Positions 51,175-56,602 of a stretch of 64,000 nt of DNA are shown piece after piece. The notes under the pieces were generated by a model that did no database searches, had not been told where the DNA came from, and saw only the letters and a list, made by a program, of their open reading frames with translations. The position numbers and the translations under genes are program-made. The first letter of the stretch is position 1. Each line of letters starts with the position of its first letter. The stretch comes from Pseudomonadota bacterium (GTDB lineage Bacteria > Pseudomonadota > Gammaproteobacteria > Burkholderiales > Burkholderiaceae_C): positions 186,001 to 250,000 of the forward strand of contig JAIUOW010000001.1 in the NCBI GenBank assembly GCA_020161775.1, given 5' to 3'.

Positions 51175-52110
51175 TCAGGCCGCCCGGGCCGCCGCGATTT
51201 GCTGCGCCATCTGGTCCAGGGAGGTTGCCGCGGCTTCCTCCAGGCTCGCCAGGCGCGCGCAGCCTGCCAACGCCTGCGCAACGTGCTGCTGCAACTGGCG
51301 GTGAATCTCCTGGGGCGCCTCGACGCTGAGCTCGGGGCTGTCCGATCCGGCCTGGGCTGCCGCCGCCAGACTGCCCATGCGCGTGCTCCAGTTGCGCGAG
51401 GTCGCCGCCAGCGTCTGTGACAGGTGCTGCACCAGCGCGCCACGCGCGCCCAGCAGATCACGGGTCTGGGCAAGCGCCTGCTGGGCGGTGGCGCTCAGGG
51501 CACGCAGCGCCTTGAGCCGCACGACGAGTATTTCGCAGCGCGCGGCATCCTCGCGCACCTTCTGCTGGGCGGACGGATCAGCAGCCGCGGCTGCATGGCG
51601 CTGCTGCAGCTGGCCGCGCATGTCCTGCAGCCACTTGGCACCTTGCTCCACAATCTTGTCCAGTGCACGGTACTCCACGTCCAGGTTGAGCAGGGTACGG
51701 TCGGTAACAGCCGCGCCCGCGCCATGGTTGCGGCCGAATTCTGCAGCGCGCGCTGTGACCGCCTTCAGCCTGGCGTCAATCTGGTCGACCTGCGCGGCGA
51801 ACTCGGCGCCTGCGCTGCGCGCCTTGCCGGTGGTGCGGGCCCACCAGCCACGCGTTTGCAGCAACTTGAAATCAAGCTGTTGCCAGGCTGTGGTGAGCGC
51901 TTCAAGGTCACCTGCCAAGGCACCGGCTGCACGGTCAAGCGCCTGCTGTGCCAGAGCCTGCTGCACGTCCAGCAGGTTCTCCACCTGCAACCGGCCCACG
52001 TCGGCGGCCATGCGGTCCAGCCAGGCCTCGGGCGTGGCAGCCGGCTGCGGCTTGAGCCGCGACAGCTTGCCCGGGGACATCAGGGATGCGGTGCGGTCGT
52101 GTTCGGTCAT
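51175..52110 (-). CDS. Coiled-coil protein of unknown function
   Basis: 311 residues from the ATG at 52110. Nearly all helix, rich in Ala, Gln, Leu and Arg, with heptad-like stretches ([23 protein letters not shown] and [40 protein letters not shown]). No signal peptide or membrane helix. The middle recalls TelA-like toxic-anion-resistance proteins only faintly, and I do not assign that family. It is directly upstream of coaX on the same strand and between it and the quorum-sensing locus. Confidence 0.65.
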
Positions 52111-52168: not shown

Positions 52169-52837
52169 TCAGATGGCCCCCATCCAGCAGGCGCGCTGGA
52201 TGGCAGCCATCTTGTTGTCCACCTTGAGCTTGTTCATGGCGTTGGCAATGTGGTAGTTGACCGTGCGGTCGCTGCAGCGCAGGCGCGCGGCGCTTTCACG
52301 GGCCGTCATGCCGCCAAAGGCCAGCGCAAGGCATTCACGCTCACGCGGGCTCAGGGTGGAGCGGGCCTGCGCAATCGAGCGCTTGACCAGTGGCCAGATG
52401 TTCAACGCCGACCACACCAGCGAGGCGGCCTCGGCGCGGTCGTTGAGCTCGCGCGGGCTGAACATGAAGCATTCGAATGCACGGCCTGCGGGCAACGAAA
52501 ACTCCACGCGGATGACGGTCTGGTAACCATGGGCCAAGGCCAGCAGCCGCCAGCGGCTGGCGCTCAGGTGATCCGATTTGGCAATGTGCTGCCAGGCCAC
52601 CAGCGGCGCATCGGATTCACGCCAGGGCGCACCGAAGTCCCGGCTTTGTGCCAGTGCCAGCGCGGCATCGGCGATCAGCGGCGGGTGCACGGCCAGGACC
52701 TGCCGGTCCTCGGGCGTGCCGAAGGGATCCGGGCCGAGCACGACCACCGCCTCGACAGAAAACTCGCGCAGCGCGCAAACCCAGTCGCTGAGGATGCCGT
52801 CCAGGCCAACGCTGTCAAAGTTAACAGGCACTCCCAT
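52169..52837 (-). CDS. LuxR-type transcriptional regulator with N-terminal sensor domain
   Basis: 222 residues from the ATG at 52837. The C-terminal GerE/LuxR helix-turn-helix is clear: LSPRERECLALAFGGMTARESAARLRCSDRTVNYHIANAMNKLKV. The N-terminal 150 residues resemble an autoinducer-binding domain in overall spacing (SASRWRLLALAHGYQTVIRVEFSLPAG, then FMFSPRELNDRAEAA) but many usual acyl-homoserine-lactone contacts are not evident. No luxI gene is near, so it is a LuxR solo. It is divergent from the sensor kinase, with a 50-bp gap, and may be the output regulator of that circuit. Confidence 0.82.
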   Translation of the reverse strand: MGVPVNFDSVGLDGILSDWVCALREFSVEAVVVLGPDPFGTPEDRQVLAVHPPLIADAALALAQSRDFGAPWRESDAPLVAWQHIAKSDHLSASRWRLLALAHGYQTVIRVEFSLPAGRAFECFMFSPRELNDRAEAASLVWSALNIWPLVKRSIAQARSTLSPRERECLALAFGGMTARESAARLRCSDRTVNYHIANAMNKLKVDNKMAAIQRACWMGAI

Positions 52838-52887
52838 CAGATCGTCGGTTCCCTTGCTGCACAGGCAGTGACAATATCATCAATACC

Positions 52888-54234
52888 GTGACTAAACGCA
52901 CAACTTCTGCATCACCGAGGGGGACTGATCTGCTGACATGGGCACACCGTACCGTCAGGCGAGTATCCGCAGGCCTGCGCTCGATCCTGACGACAGAGGT
53001 TGTCCAGCCGTTGCTGGAGCCCATCCTGCACCCTTCGCGCTGGCGCATCCGTGCCCTGGGTCTGTCCACGGCGGTGGGGCATCCGCTGTTCTACCTGTTC
53101 TGGGGCAAGCTGCTGCCCCAGCCCTATGAGCCACTCGGCCCGCGGCTGCTGATGTGCGCGCTGGGCCTGTCATTGCTGGTGTTCCGGCCCATCTATGCCA
53201 GCCCGCCCAGCACCGCATCGGCGGCGATGTTCACCGTGATCTTCTGGATCACCCTGCCCTTCTTCTTTTCGTGGATGTTCCTGTGCAACGGCGGCAATGC
53301 GGTGTGGCTGGCCAGCATGAGCGCGATGTTCCTCATTTACTACCACCTGACCGACTGGCGGATTGCCACGCTGGGCTCCCTCACGGGCGGCGTGGCCGCG
53401 TGGCTGGTCTTCAGCGCATTTGGGCCCGTGGTGCCGCCCATGACGGCCGATCAGGTGGCTACCAACGCCATCGTGCTGGCGTTCAGCTGGTACATGGCAC
53501 TGATGCTGGGGCTGTCGTCGTCCAACCTGCGGCGCGAGCAGATCAACTACACGCTGGCCACCATGGGCATCATGGCGCACGAGCTGCGCACGCCACTGGC
53601 CACCATGTCGCTCATCGGCGACGCTGTGCGCAACGAAGCGCGGCCACCCGCCGGCAGCGATCCGGCCAGGCTGGACCTTCTGGGCACGCGGCTGCATACG
53701 CTGGTGCGCAACATGAACCACCAGATCGACACCCAGATCGCCAACGCCCGCATCCTGCGGCTGCCCCGGCACAAGGAAGACATCTCCGCCGCCGAGCTGG
53801 TCCAGGGCGCCTTGCGCGACTACCCTTACCGCAGCACACGCGAGCGCGAAAGCGTGGTGCTGCAGGTACACCGGGACTTCCGCTTCCGCGGTTCGCATGC
53901 CCTGTTCTCGCAGGTCATCGACAACCTGGTGAAGAACGCCCTGCGCTCGCTGGCGGCAGCCACCACGGCCAGCAAGCCAGGTGACCTGCTCATCGAGATC
54001 GGCACGCTGCGCGACCGCGGGCGCATTGTGCTGTCTGACCAGGGCGTGGGCATTGGCCCCGAACTCCAGCAGCGCATCTTCGAGCCCTTTTTCTCCACCG
54101 ACCGTGGCACCGGCCACGGGCTGGGCCTGGCTTTCTGCAAGCGGGTGGTCCACAGCGCGCAGGGCTCCATCCGCGTCAAATCCGAGCCGGCCCGCGGCGC
54201 CATATTCACCATTGAATTGCCCCTTGTGCACTAG
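52888..54234 (+). CDS. Membrane sensor histidine kinase, CqsS/LqsS-like
   Basis: 448 residues. Six hydrophobic helices fill about 55-210, with very short loops, as in CqsS and LqsS, which bind alpha-hydroxyketones in the membrane. The phosphate-accepting His231 is in MAHELRTPLATM; the N-box is QVIDNLVKNALRSL, and the G-boxes are DQGVGIG and GTGHGLGLAFCKRVV. There is no receiver domain, unlike CqsS, so it resembles LqsS/JqsK. A response regulator gene follows after 42 bp and a CqsA-type synthase beyond it on the other strand. This context supports an autoinducer receptor role. Confidence 0.85.
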   Translation: MTKRTTSASPRGTDLLTWAHRTVRRVSAGLRSILTTEVVQPLLEPILHPSRWRIRALGLSTAVGHPLFYLFWGKLLPQPYEPLGPRLLMCALGLSLLVFRPIYASPPSTASAAMFTVIFWITLPFFFSWMFLCNGGNAVWLASMSAMFLIYYHLTDWRIATLGSLTGGVAAWLVFSAFGPVVPPMTADQVATNAIVLAFSWYMALMLGLSSSNLRREQINYTLATMGIMAHELRTPLATMSLIGDAVRNEARPPAGSDPARLDLLGTRLHTLVRNMNHQIDTQIANARILRLPRHKEDISAAELVQGALRDYPYRSTRERESVVLQVHRDFRFRGSHALFSQVIDNLVKNALRSLAAATTASKPGDLLIEIGTLRDRGRIVLSDQGVGIGPELQQRIFEPFFSTDRGTGHGLGLAFCKRVVHSAQGSIRVKSEPARGAIFTIELPLVH

Positions 54235-54276
54235 CAAAATGACACGATCCCCTTTTCGCTCTCGAGGAGTGCGCCC

Positions 54277-55251
54277 ATGAGCTTCGCCCTGTTCCAACGA
54301 CCTGGCACCGTGGTCTTCCTGGACGATGACCCCGACTACCTGGAGATGCTGGCGCTGGTGCTGCCACGCCACTGGCACCTGAAGCTCTTCCTGCGTCCGC
54401 ACGACTGCATCAACTACCTGCAGCAGGAGCCGCCGTTCTGGGAGGCTGACGCCTGGAACCAGCAACAGCTGGTGGAGCACTGGCGCGAGGGCAAGCCACT
54501 GATTCCGCAGCTTCTGGGTTACTGGTCCAAGTACACCGAGCGCTATGCGCTCACGCGCGTGTGCGTGGTGGACTACTCCATGCCCGCCATGGACGGCCTG
54601 CAGACGCTGGGCGAGCTGGTGGATTGGCCCGGCTCACGCGTGCTGCTGACAGGCCAGGCGGACGAGCAGGTCGCGGTCAACGCATTCAACCGCGGCCTGA
54701 TCGACCAGTTCATCGCCAAGCAGACGCCCGACATCTCGCACCGGCTGATCGACGCGGTGGAAAACCTGATGGCCGCGCCCAACCCGCGGCATTCGCAGAT
54801 CTGGCGCGCCACGCTGACACCGCAGCAAAACGCGTTGCTGCGCGTGCCCTCGATCGGGCGCGATCTCACGGACTTCGTGAGCAAGCGCTGGGTGGAGCAC
54901 GTGGTGATCGGTGACCCGTTCGGTGTGCTGGGCATGGATGCCGACGGCCAGGTGTCGTGGTTGCAGCTGGAGCCGGTCAGCGGCCTGGAGGACCTGGCGG
55001 TGCTGGCGCAAGCCGAGGGCCTGGGCGCCGCTGCCGCGGACATCCGCAACGGGCGCAAGCTGGTGGACCTGGAACTGCGCCAGGCCCTGGCCCATGGCGC
55101 CCCGCCCGAGCTGAACCCGGCATTCACCATCGGACGCGAGGAGAACCTGCTGGGCGCACTGTTCCCGGTGCCACCCGAGCTGTGCCCCGACACCGCCAAC
55201 AGCTACGGCCGCTGGCTGGCGCGCCAGGAACACCGCAACGTGCAGGGCTGA
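54277..55251 (+). CDS. Response regulator with interrupted receiver and unknown C-terminal domain (LqsR-like)
   Basis: 324 residues with GAGGAG upstream. The receiver has FLDDDPD at 15-20, the phosphate-accepting Asp99 in VVDYSMPAMDG, Thr125 (LLTGQ) and Lys148 (FIAKQ). About 50 extra residues rich in Trp, Gln and His sit between the first two strands (about 40-90), which is unusual. The C-terminal 150 residues have no helix-turn-helix or enzyme motif I recognise. LqsR/JqsR regulators likewise lack a DNA-binding domain. Probably phosphorylated by the kinase encoded 42 bp upstream. Confidence 0.8.
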   Translation: MSFALFQRPGTVVFLDDDPDYLEMLALVLPRHWHLKLFLRPHDCINYLQQEPPFWEADAWNQQQLVEHWREGKPLIPQLLGYWSKYTERYALTRVCVVDYSMPAMDGLQTLGELVDWPGSRVLLTGQADEQVAVNAFNRGLIDQFIAKQTPDISHRLIDAVENLMAAPNPRHSQIWRATLTPQQNALLRVPSIGRDLTDFVSKRWVEHVVIGDPFGVLGMDADGQVSWLQLEPVSGLEDLAVLAQAEGLGAAAADIRNGRKLVDLELRQALAHGAPPELNPAFTIGREENLLGALFPVPPELCPDTANSYGRWLARQEHRNVQG

Positions 55252-55278
55252 AGCCCAGGGCCTCAGGCCTTCAGGTCT

Positions 55279-56517
55279 TCAAGCCGCCGCGGCACCGCGG
55301 CCGCGCCGGGCGATCGGCCAGTCCCAGGGCCTGGCCAATGGCAGGACGTCATGGGCTGCAGCCTCCACATGGGCCAGTTCGGCCTGCGTCAGTGCCGCGT
55401 TGAGCGTCAGGCGAACCATCGCCCGGTTGCGGCTGGTGGCAGGCGCACAGAACACGGCGCCAAACACACCGCGTGCTTCGAGCTGGTCGCGCAGTGCGAG
55501 CGTGTCGAACTCCGTGCCGGCCTCCAGCGCAATGATCTGTTCGCTGCCCTGGTGGATCGGGTAGCCCATGTCGCTCAGGCTGCGGCGCAGGCGGCGGGTG
55601 CTGGCATGCAGCTGCGCCCGCGCTTCATCGCTGTGGCGTATGACTTCCAGCGTGGCGGCCAGGCCCGCAATTTCATGGGGCAGCAACGCGGAGCTGAAGA
55701 TACCGGGAAAGCTGTGGCACATCAGGTAGTTGCGTAGCTCGGGCGGCGCGGTGAAGAAACCGGCGCGGCCCGCAAACGCCTTGGCCAGGCTGGCGGTAAC
55801 GAAGTGCACCCTGTGGGTCAGGCCCAGCTGGACACACAGCCCCGCGCCGGCCGGGCCATGCGTTCCAAGTGAATGGGACTCATCCACCAGCACCATGCAG
55901 CCATAACGCTCCGCGGCGTCAACGATATCGGCCAGCGGGCACAGCGCGCCGGTCGTGCTGTACACGGAGTCCACCACCACCAGCCCCGGCCCGTGGCGTG
56001 CCGCCATCCGGGCAAAGTGTTCCGGGTCATTGTGGCGAAACGGGTGCACCGGCGCGCCCGATGCGCGCGCGCCCTCCCACAGCGACATGTGGGCCAGCAT
56101 GTCCATGTACACCGGCGTCTGCGGATCGGCCACGACCTGGATCAGCCCGAGATTGGCGGTATAGCCGGACTGGCAGATGTATCCATCGTCCTTGCCGATC
56201 CAGCCGGCAATGGCCGCCTCCAGCTGACCGGCGGGGTGCCCATCCAGGTGGAAGACCCCCGACTGGATCACAAACTCGTGGTCATGCCGAAGCGAATGAA
56301 GCTGGGCCTGCACGATGTCGGGATGGCCGGTGACGGCCAGATAATCGTTGCCGTCCAGCCGCACTGCGTCTGGTCCGGCGGGCCGGCCGTGGGTCACGAA
56401 ACGCCCGCTCCACTCGTGCGTGAAACGCGGGGCAAATTCAGCCAGCCGGCGTTGCAGGTTGGCGCCCAACGGGGGGTTGGCCGCGTGCAGCGCCGCAGCC
56501 TTGTCAAGTACTTCCAT
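55279..56517 (-). CDS. CqsA/LqsA-type alpha-hydroxyketone autoinducer synthase (PLP-dependent)
   Basis: 412 residues from the ATG at 56517 (GAGG upstream); a GTG at 56544 is less likely. An alpha-oxoamine-synthase fold: RLDGNDYLAVTGHPDIVQAQ, VDESHSLGTHGPAGAGL at 211-227 (Asp212 for the PLP ring) and the PLP Lys246 in TASLAKAFAGRAG. The DESHSLGTHG run is the hallmark I associate with CqsA rather than with KBL or BioF (usually DDAHS or DEAHS). CqsA joins acyl-CoA with an amino-acid-derived unit to form an alpha-hydroxyketone signal. A sensor kinase and response regulator gene lie next to it, convergent by 27 bp. Confidence 0.85.
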   Translation of the reverse strand: MEVLDKAAALHAANPPLGANLQRRLAEFAPRFTHEWSGRFVTHGRPAGPDAVRLDGNDYLAVTGHPDIVQAQLHSLRHDHEFVIQSGVFHLDGHPAGQLEAAIAGWIGKDDGYICQSGYTANLGLIQVVADPQTPVYMDMLAHMSLWEGARASGAPVHPFRHNDPEHFARMAARHGPGLVVVDSVYSTTGALCPLADIVDAAERYGCMVLVDESHSLGTHGPAGAGLCVQLGLTHRVHFVTASLAKAFAGRAGFFTAPPELRNYLMCHSFPGIFSSALLPHEIAGLAATLEVIRHSDEARAQLHASTRRLRRSLSDMGYPIHQGSEQIIALEAGTEFDTLALRDQLEARGVFGAVFCAPATSRNRAMVRLTLNAALTQAELAHVEAAAHDVLPLARPWDWPIARRGRGAAAA

Positions 56518-56550
56518 ATGCACCTCGCAAAAAAACAGGTGCACTGATTG

Positions 56551-56568
56551 AAGTTCGAAACAGAACTT
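56551..56568. promoter_or_regulatory. Candidate operator upstream of the autoinducer synthase
   Basis: AAGTTCGAAACAGAACTT: perfect 6-bp arms around six bases, centred about 42 bp before the synthase ATG. It is the clearest palindrome of the 106-bp gap between secA and the synthase. It does not match the CTG-N10-CAG pattern of lux boxes. It may be read by the LuxR-type regulator at 52169 or another repressor. Confidence 0.45.
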
Positions 56569-56580
56569 TACGTCTGCGGA

Positions 56581-56602
56581 CCCCTGTCAAGTTTGACAGG
56601 GG
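56581..56602. repeat. Inverted repeat after secA
   Basis: CCCCTGTCA and its complement TGACAGGGG with a 4-base loop (AGTT), 22 bp after the secA stop. The position fits a terminator for secA, but no T-run follows on the minus strand, so termination may be partial and some synthase expression could come from read-through. Confidence 0.5.

Follow-up and report, generated by a model that had tools for sequence, protein, structure and literature searches.

The four-gene locus described here occupies positions 52169-56517 of a 64,000-nucleotide stretch of DNA (the window) from a bacterium of the Burkholderiaceae_C (assembly GCA_020161775.1, contig JAIUOW010000001.1). An earlier reading of the bare sequence (the sequence-only reading) had proposed that the locus encodes an alpha-hydroxyketone quorum-sensing system made up of a synthase, a sensor kinase, a response regulator (RR) and a LuxR-type protein that could be its transcriptional output. 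The list of open reading frames (ORFs) confirmed the four genes where that reading had placed them (Table 1), including the 50 bp that separate the luxR ATG from the GTG of the divergent kinase gene. A scan of genome contigs yielded 27 related loci, and in 26 of them the gene order was kept, with the synthase gene converging on the RR and kinase genes and luxR pointing away from the latter; the exception was L034, whose synthase match reaches only 39%. A CqsA/LqsA-type synthase with a sensor kinase and an LqsR-family RR is a known kind of locus. Such lqs-like clusters were noted in Polaromonas, Burkholderia xenovorans, and Ralstonia eutropha in 2012 (PMC3376566), and lqs clusters, with LqsR/PhcX, were surveyed across Proteobacteria in 2023 (PMC10653808). 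Because the passages seen of these papers already report betaproteobacterial clusters, the locus itself cannot count as new. In the parts seen of the matches listed by a full-text literature search, no lqs or jqs locus was described with a LuxR-type member, and what appears to be new here is comparative evidence, drawn from sequences, that would tie a LuxR-type protein to the hydroxyketone circuit.

Table 1. Features of the locus, with positions in the window
Feature	Position	Strand	Basis
LuxR-type regulator, 222 amino acids (aa)	52169..52837	-	Pfam GerE domain 161-215; fold matches; orthologs
Predicted lux-box in luxR codons 4-9, CCTGTTAACTTTGACAGC on minus strand	52811..52828		Codon bias; two mismatches
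Sensor histidine kinase in the place of LqsS/JqsS	52888..54234	+	Pfam HATPase_c and HisKA; GTG start uncertain
LqsR-family RR, receiver and non-DNA-binding output domain	54277..55251	+	6sy9 by sequence and fold
CqsA/LqsA/JqsA-type autoinducer synthase	55279..56517	-	NF005526 above cut-off; CqsA 3hqt match; tree
Leader hairpin of synthase mRNA	56518..56544	-	Fold of L091; compensatory changes; arm-exchange control
TTCAAT, conserved, possible transcription start region	56547..56552	-	27-29 bp from box
Predicted lux-box upstream of synthase, CCCCTGTCAAACTTGACAGGGG	56581..56602		Perfect match to CCTGTCA-N4-TGACAGG

The synthase, which starts with ATG, scored 545.4 bits against NCBIfam model NF005526 (cut-off 428), and CqsA of Vibrio cholerae (3hqt) aligned with it across nearly its full length (E=1.9e-104). 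The alignment showed the region around DESHSLGTHG, a motif identical in V. cholerae CqsA, as well as a lysine that we take to be the pyridoxal phosphate-binding residue. In a tree of 30 proteins, the synthase, CqsA and 21 relatives (23 rows) were split from the other seven rows with a support of 100/100. NCBIfam named four of these seven BioF and two KBL, and the last, an oxoamine synthase, fell below every cut-off; incomplete ends could depress the scores of these rows. Two members of the tree, L201 and L235, formed long, unsure branches, and L201 scored under the NF005526 cut-off while standing on the CqsA side. The shared motif, the NF005526 score and the tree bear out the CqsA/LqsA-type assignment made in the sequence-only reading, which had named a grouping with KBL or BioF as the result that would overturn it; the synthase fell with CqsA, apart from the BioF and KBL rows. 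Its product would be a diffusible hydroxyketone-like signal.

The kinase matched the Pfam families HATPase_c and, weakly, HisKA, with no match to a receiver, as the sequence-only reading had held. Its phospho-acceptor His231 was kept in all 30 related loci that have a kinase, and the four strong hydrophobic segments of its hydropathy profile, together with two that are weak, are compatible with six helices and not proof of them. Because similarity to most relatives sets in about 20-40 residues downstream of the GTG, the kinase start is uncertain. For the RR, Pfam gave a receiver alone, at 29.4 bits marginally under the curated cut-off of 30.2. The closest solved protein was Legionella LqsR (6sy9, sequence E of 2.6e-18), and the full-length model, with a mean predicted local distance difference test score (pLDDT) of 90.2, matched the 6sy9 fold with a template modelling (TM) score of 0.73. 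Residues D16-D18, D99, T125, and K148 were invariant across 19 aligned sequences. These results agree with the proposal that the RR lacks a DNA-binding domain, and they place it in the LqsR family by sequence and fold.

Beyond its GerE domain, the LuxR-type protein had no Pfam match in its N-terminal domain, and none to Autoind_bind (PF03472) at E<=1. The best fold matches of its model were chains of QscR, SdiA, RhlR, and TraR. Among the ORFs beside luxR in the window, judged by eye, there was no LuxI-type synthase.

We then compared the DNA upstream of the synthase genes of the 27 contig loci with that of the 30 genomes, among 299 of the host family, in which a synthase was found. The palindrome CCCCTGTCAAnnTTGACAGGGG was present upstream of most of these genes. 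When it was scored over 20 fixed positions, with a score of 15 or more taken as a clear box, 24 of the 27 contig loci and 22 of the 30 family-genome loci had a clear box (the two sets overlap, three upstreams being identical), and the best of 1140 letter-shuffled synthase upstreams scored 14. The contig loci under 15 were L017 and L026 (14 each) and L034, and the family-genome misses included G162, where the contig ends, and three genomes without the LuxR-type gene. The sequence CTGTC-N6-GACAG was absent within about 330 bp of the synthase in 16 loci of other families for which upstream sequence was available and in the three LuxR-less family loci; one of these loci, L201, had a loose CTG-N10-CAG upstream. 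Forty-four distinct upstreams had a clear box; the conserved TTCAAT lay 28 bp from it in 28 of them, 27 bp in 14 and 29 bp in one, and was lacking in L080 alone. We dropped TTCAAT as a -10 box, since transcription would then begin within the 5' arm of the hairpin described below.

The same palindrome as in the synthase promoter is spelled out by luxR codons 4-9 (CCTGTYAACTTTGACAGY). Codon usage was counted in 59 distinct luxR sequences (at least two pairs, L044/L133 and L059/L134, are overlapping copies of one gene each), which share descent, so that the counts are not independent. Proline 4 was CCT in 58 of 59 sequences, against a background of 9% elsewhere in these genes, and serine 9 was AGY in all 59 (background 54%). 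Among the sequences with the residue in question, valine 5 was GTY in 45 of 45 (background 35%), phenylalanine 7 was TTT in 51 of 52 (32%), and aspartate 8 was GAC in 56 of 56 (72%). The statistic for codon bias ran from 37 to 274 at box codons 4, 5, 7, 8, and 9; spacer codon 6 gave 2.6, and beyond the box codon 10 gave 10.2, codon 12 gave 7.9 and codon 13 gave 0.3. In L059 the palindrome was intact despite two changed amino acids. That this DNA is kept against codon preference seems hard to explain other than as a conserved box.

Elsewhere in the 4.36 Mb genome, perfect copies of CCTGTCA-N4-TGACAGG were few. Including that in the synthase promoter there were three; one of the others lies 73 bp before a gene of 288 aa, and the second in the interval that separates an M16 peptidase gene from a hypothetical one. 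Across 32 LuxR-bearing genomes, 85 sites with at most one mismatch were found, locus sites counted and at least 41 of them perfect, compared to 5 with a reversed-pattern control. For 32 family genomes without this LuxR, taken in list order, the number was 23, none perfect, with a control of 3; these sites may belong to other LuxR proteins, and in G076 one of them adjoins a LuxR-domain match. An ORF start, as given by a crude ORF caller, lay within 150 bp in 19 of 28 examined perfect-box loci outside the synthase promoter. Recurrent box neighbors were ShlB/FhaC two-partner secretion genes in four genomes (L141, L142, L148, and L157, with the boxes in front), the gap between the M16 peptidase gene and a gene that we take to be rsmD in four genomes, and NDH-2, phosphonate-binding, and cellulase-like genes in two genomes each. 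The ShlB/FhaC-type transporters suggest that a surface or contact function is under this control. Outside the locus, the 288-aa gene (L109:4592-5548, box at G000:C4:17530) is the strongest candidate target; it had no Pfam or NCBIfam match. The perfect box at G000:C6:38507 is followed by a strongly structured stretch (L110:5300-5524, fold z-score -3.6) that ends in a terminator-like hairpin and a T-run. We treated this candidate small RNA as a weak lead, as it had no Rfam match and an alignment of the four genomes with a box behind the M16 peptidase gene revealed no RNA conserved beyond the box.

The distribution of the genes was examined across the 299 family genomes and 399 genomes of the host order. 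LuxR-type orthologs were found in 33 family genomes at E<=3e-59, with a gap to 1e-28 for the next match. Synthase and LuxR occurred together in 27 family genomes, always on the same contig and a few kb apart, and the three synthase genomes without the LuxR-type gene were G009, G093, and G129. In the order the synthase was present in 20 genomes, 17 of them outside the family. LuxR matches at E<=1e-20 were present in four, all of the family, and in the 17 fetched other-family loci, several of which end early at contig ends, the sole LuxR match was to the DNA-binding domain, in L198. Since the matches in the order search are confined to family genomes, the LuxR-type gene seems to have been added at the level of the family.

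At E<=1e-20, LuxR matches were found in 35 family genomes, namely the 33 above, G070 (a 30% homologue) and G278 (fragments), and 34 of the 35 also carried the RR. Seven of these 34 had no synthase, and in all seven LuxR and RR were adjacent, divergent in six and on the same strand in G070, with the receiver residues of the RR intact and no kinase or synthase match within the 12-13.5 kb fetched around each pair. In G271 and G161, where synthase and kinase have been lost, a lux-box still lies about 85 bp past the RR gene (L212:7793 and L210:8209) and is probably a remnant. The genomes G132 and G035 have, without this LuxR, an RR relative of about 40% identity beside LuxI and AHL-type (N-acyl homoserine lactone) LuxR genes. 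In the alignment, the G132 relative had altered receiver residues including the phospho-acceptor, and in G035 the first two acidic residues alone were altered. The two loci (L216:6251-9190 and L217:5702-8639) may represent a hybrid in which two quorum-sensing systems are combined. Taken together, the co-occurrence of RR and LuxR and the RR relative in LuxI/LuxR loci suggest, as a correlation only, that LuxR-type proteins are what the RR works with. A bolder and more doubtful proposal, which we advance tentatively, is that LqsR-family RRs may be protein partners of LuxR-type factors, feeding two-component input into LuxR output much as in the pair PqsE-RhlR. We also found five solitary LqsR-type RRs (L218-L222, in G242, G175, G253 twice, and G070) of 56-66% identity, three of which adjoin an amidase gene; the stretches fetched around them had no LuxR, kinase or box match.

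We take the locus to be an alpha-hydroxyketone-type quorum-sensing locus of the Lqs/Jqs kind with the adjacent LuxR-type protein as its transcriptional output, at a probability of roughly 0.7. The role that the sequence-only reading had suggested for the LuxR-type protein gains support from the shared predicted operators, from co-occurrence and from the genomes in which the RR-LuxR pair has outlasted synthase and kinase. Several results weigh on the other side. The structural model of the LuxR-type protein reaches a moderate mean pLDDT (71.5), its fold matches have TM scores of just 0.3-0.5 or so, and in a profile comparison the similarity to two AHL receptors was confined to residues 114-222. 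Seven of 41 genomes with the RR lack this LuxR, and G278, a genome 76% complete, has LuxR fragments and no RR. Four LuxR-bearing genomes had no clear synthase box (G040 and G113 scored 14, G206 13, and G019 9), the internal luxR box is lost in L050, and no -10 or -35 was conserved between box and TTCAAT in 43 aligned regions selected for having TTCAAT. No site with at most one mismatch was found in 6 of the 32 LuxR-bearing genomes, one-mismatch boxes occurred in 11 of the 32 genomes without this LuxR, and the two perfect boxes outside the locus precede things of unknown function. In G278 the fragments are two and adjacent (G278:C30:1486-1862), with neither synthase nor RR found, perhaps a decaying copy.

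Among competing explanations, the most serious is that luxR is a hitch-hiking neighbor with a signal of its own, such as an AHL, and that the boxes at the locus reflect unrelated cross-talk. LuxR-type solos commonly sense foreign AHLs, chains of QscR, TraR, and SdiA top the fold search, and the RR can exist without this LuxR, all of which fit that account; the missing Autoind_bind match, the presence of the RR in 34 of the 35 LuxR-bearing genomes and the fixed-geometry boxes in both luxR and the synthase promoter do not, and we regard it as unlikely. It is far less probable still that the palindromes serve as terminators or are just general repeats. The window box does lie about 20 bp past the secA stop, G271 keeps its box beside secA despite the loss of the synthase, and the C6 box directly follows the M16 peptidase gene. 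We rejected this reading because just 3 of the 27 contig loci have a secA match ahead of the synthase (in L010 the upstream is too short to judge), and 22 of the other 24 score 15 or more; moreover, the palindrome has no T-run, the luxR codons hold the same sequence, and the 32 LuxR-less genomes have no perfect copies. The enzyme itself might be another alpha-oxoamine synthase (BioF or KBL), with which it shares a superfamily, and it is the sole BioF-like match in the genome at E<=1e-30. Its score against the BioF model, however, was 218.7 bits, under the cut-off of 426, compared to 117 bits above the cut-off for the synthase model, and the tree sets it apart from BioF and KBL. Since the genome holds no second BioF-like protein at that threshold and no bioB above cut-off, a biotin role is unlikely, and this alternative is to be given hardly any weight.

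With the LuxR-type protein as output, the kinase would sense the signal and set the phosphorylation of the RR, as its family and the intact residues of both proteins suggest. The RR, having no DNA-binding domain, may act via the LuxR-type protein, by contact or by altering its activity, as the co-occurrence would lead one to expect. The LuxR-type protein probably binds the CTG-N10-CAG box, a prediction for which the comparative evidence is strong. At the synthase promoter it would probably activate, because the fixed spacing puts the box near -42 if the transcription start is the A of TTCA, and near -42 is the classical activating position for LuxR proteins. The position of the other box, within luxR, suggests repression by blockage, and LuxR probably represses its own gene there. 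It may also control a limited number of other genes, which vary from genus to genus.

Legionella Lqs has the same kinds of synthase and kinase and an RR of the same family, with a fold match over the full length. It differs in that hdeD sits between lqsR and lqsS (PMC3376566) and in that LvbR, a transcription factor tied to Lqs, is encoded elsewhere, beside hnox1 (PMC11237717); the passages seen of these two papers describe no LuxR-type neighbor. The Jqs system of Janthinobacterium (jqsA, jqsS, and jqsR), described in 2013 (PMC3566124), comprises the same three protein kinds as here, and in the parts seen of the papers a conserved palindrome, for which a jqs promoter motif was given in 2016 (PMC5080296), stands upstream of jqsA and other regulated genes. 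The motif differs from ours, being TTGAN6/7TCAA (the JAI-1 motif), its binder is not named in those parts of PMC5080296/PMC3566124, and the several potential luxR solos that they mention in some strains are not tied to jqs. The JAI-1 motif had no match in the window, including upstream of the synthase. In a locus of another family (L199:7171-7231, genome G642), it occurs twice upstream of the synthase, where a LuxR box is lacking, and that family may therefore have a different output. Ralstonia PhcX is of the same RR family and, in the parts seen of PMC10653808, adjoins phc genes; the term LuxR has 0 occurrences in the main text of that paper. The LuxR-type protein shares domain order and, at moderate confidence, overall fold with QscR, SdiA, and RhlR, but differs from them in having no Autoind_bind sequence match and no LuxI-kind neighbor and in being tied to an RR. 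Receptors of the QscR/SdiA/RhlR type use a box of the CTG-N10-CAG type.

The passages of the literature that we consulted give no answer as to how LqsR/JqsR RRs, which lack a DNA-binding domain, reach promoters. One adjacent DNA-binding protein, two predicted operators at the locus and a few further sites make that question testable. The arrangement proposed here would unite hydroxyketone sensing by a sensor kinase with LuxR/lux-box control, two signaling logics usually kept apart.

The synthase mRNA may carry a second layer of control. In most relatives a leader hairpin between TTCAAT and the start codon takes in the start codon, and in the predicted fold of L091, which is identical to the window locus, it is shifted slightly inward, ends immediately short of the start codon and leaves the AUG unpaired. 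Of 43 leaders found, L181, from another family, was excluded. Of the remaining 42, 36 had a paired AUG, 35 had a paired Shine-Dalgarno-like stretch, and 33 had a fold z-score below -2. Their mean energy was -11.6 kcal/mol, compared to -6.8 (standard deviation 0.44) after 5' and 3' halves were exchanged among loci, and none of 300 exchanges attained the native mean. In an alignment of 20 of these 42 leaders, chosen for similar length so that some with weak folds (among them L071, L076, L086, and L092) were excluded, 82.9% of cells paired, compared to 65.9% when shuffled and 35.5-49.1% when slid, and 9 of 11 hairpin pairs had compensatory changes on both sides. This covariation backs the structure, and a hairpin over or beside the start codon would allow translational control of the synthase. 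CsrA binds lqsR mRNA in Legionella, according to the part seen of PMC5338858. Control of the leader by CsrA was considered and set aside, as the ANGGA-like loops overlap the ribosome-binding site and the two were inseparable by eye. Downstream of luxR, at window positions 51175-52110, lies a gene for a weakly TelA-like protein, under the Pfam cut-off.

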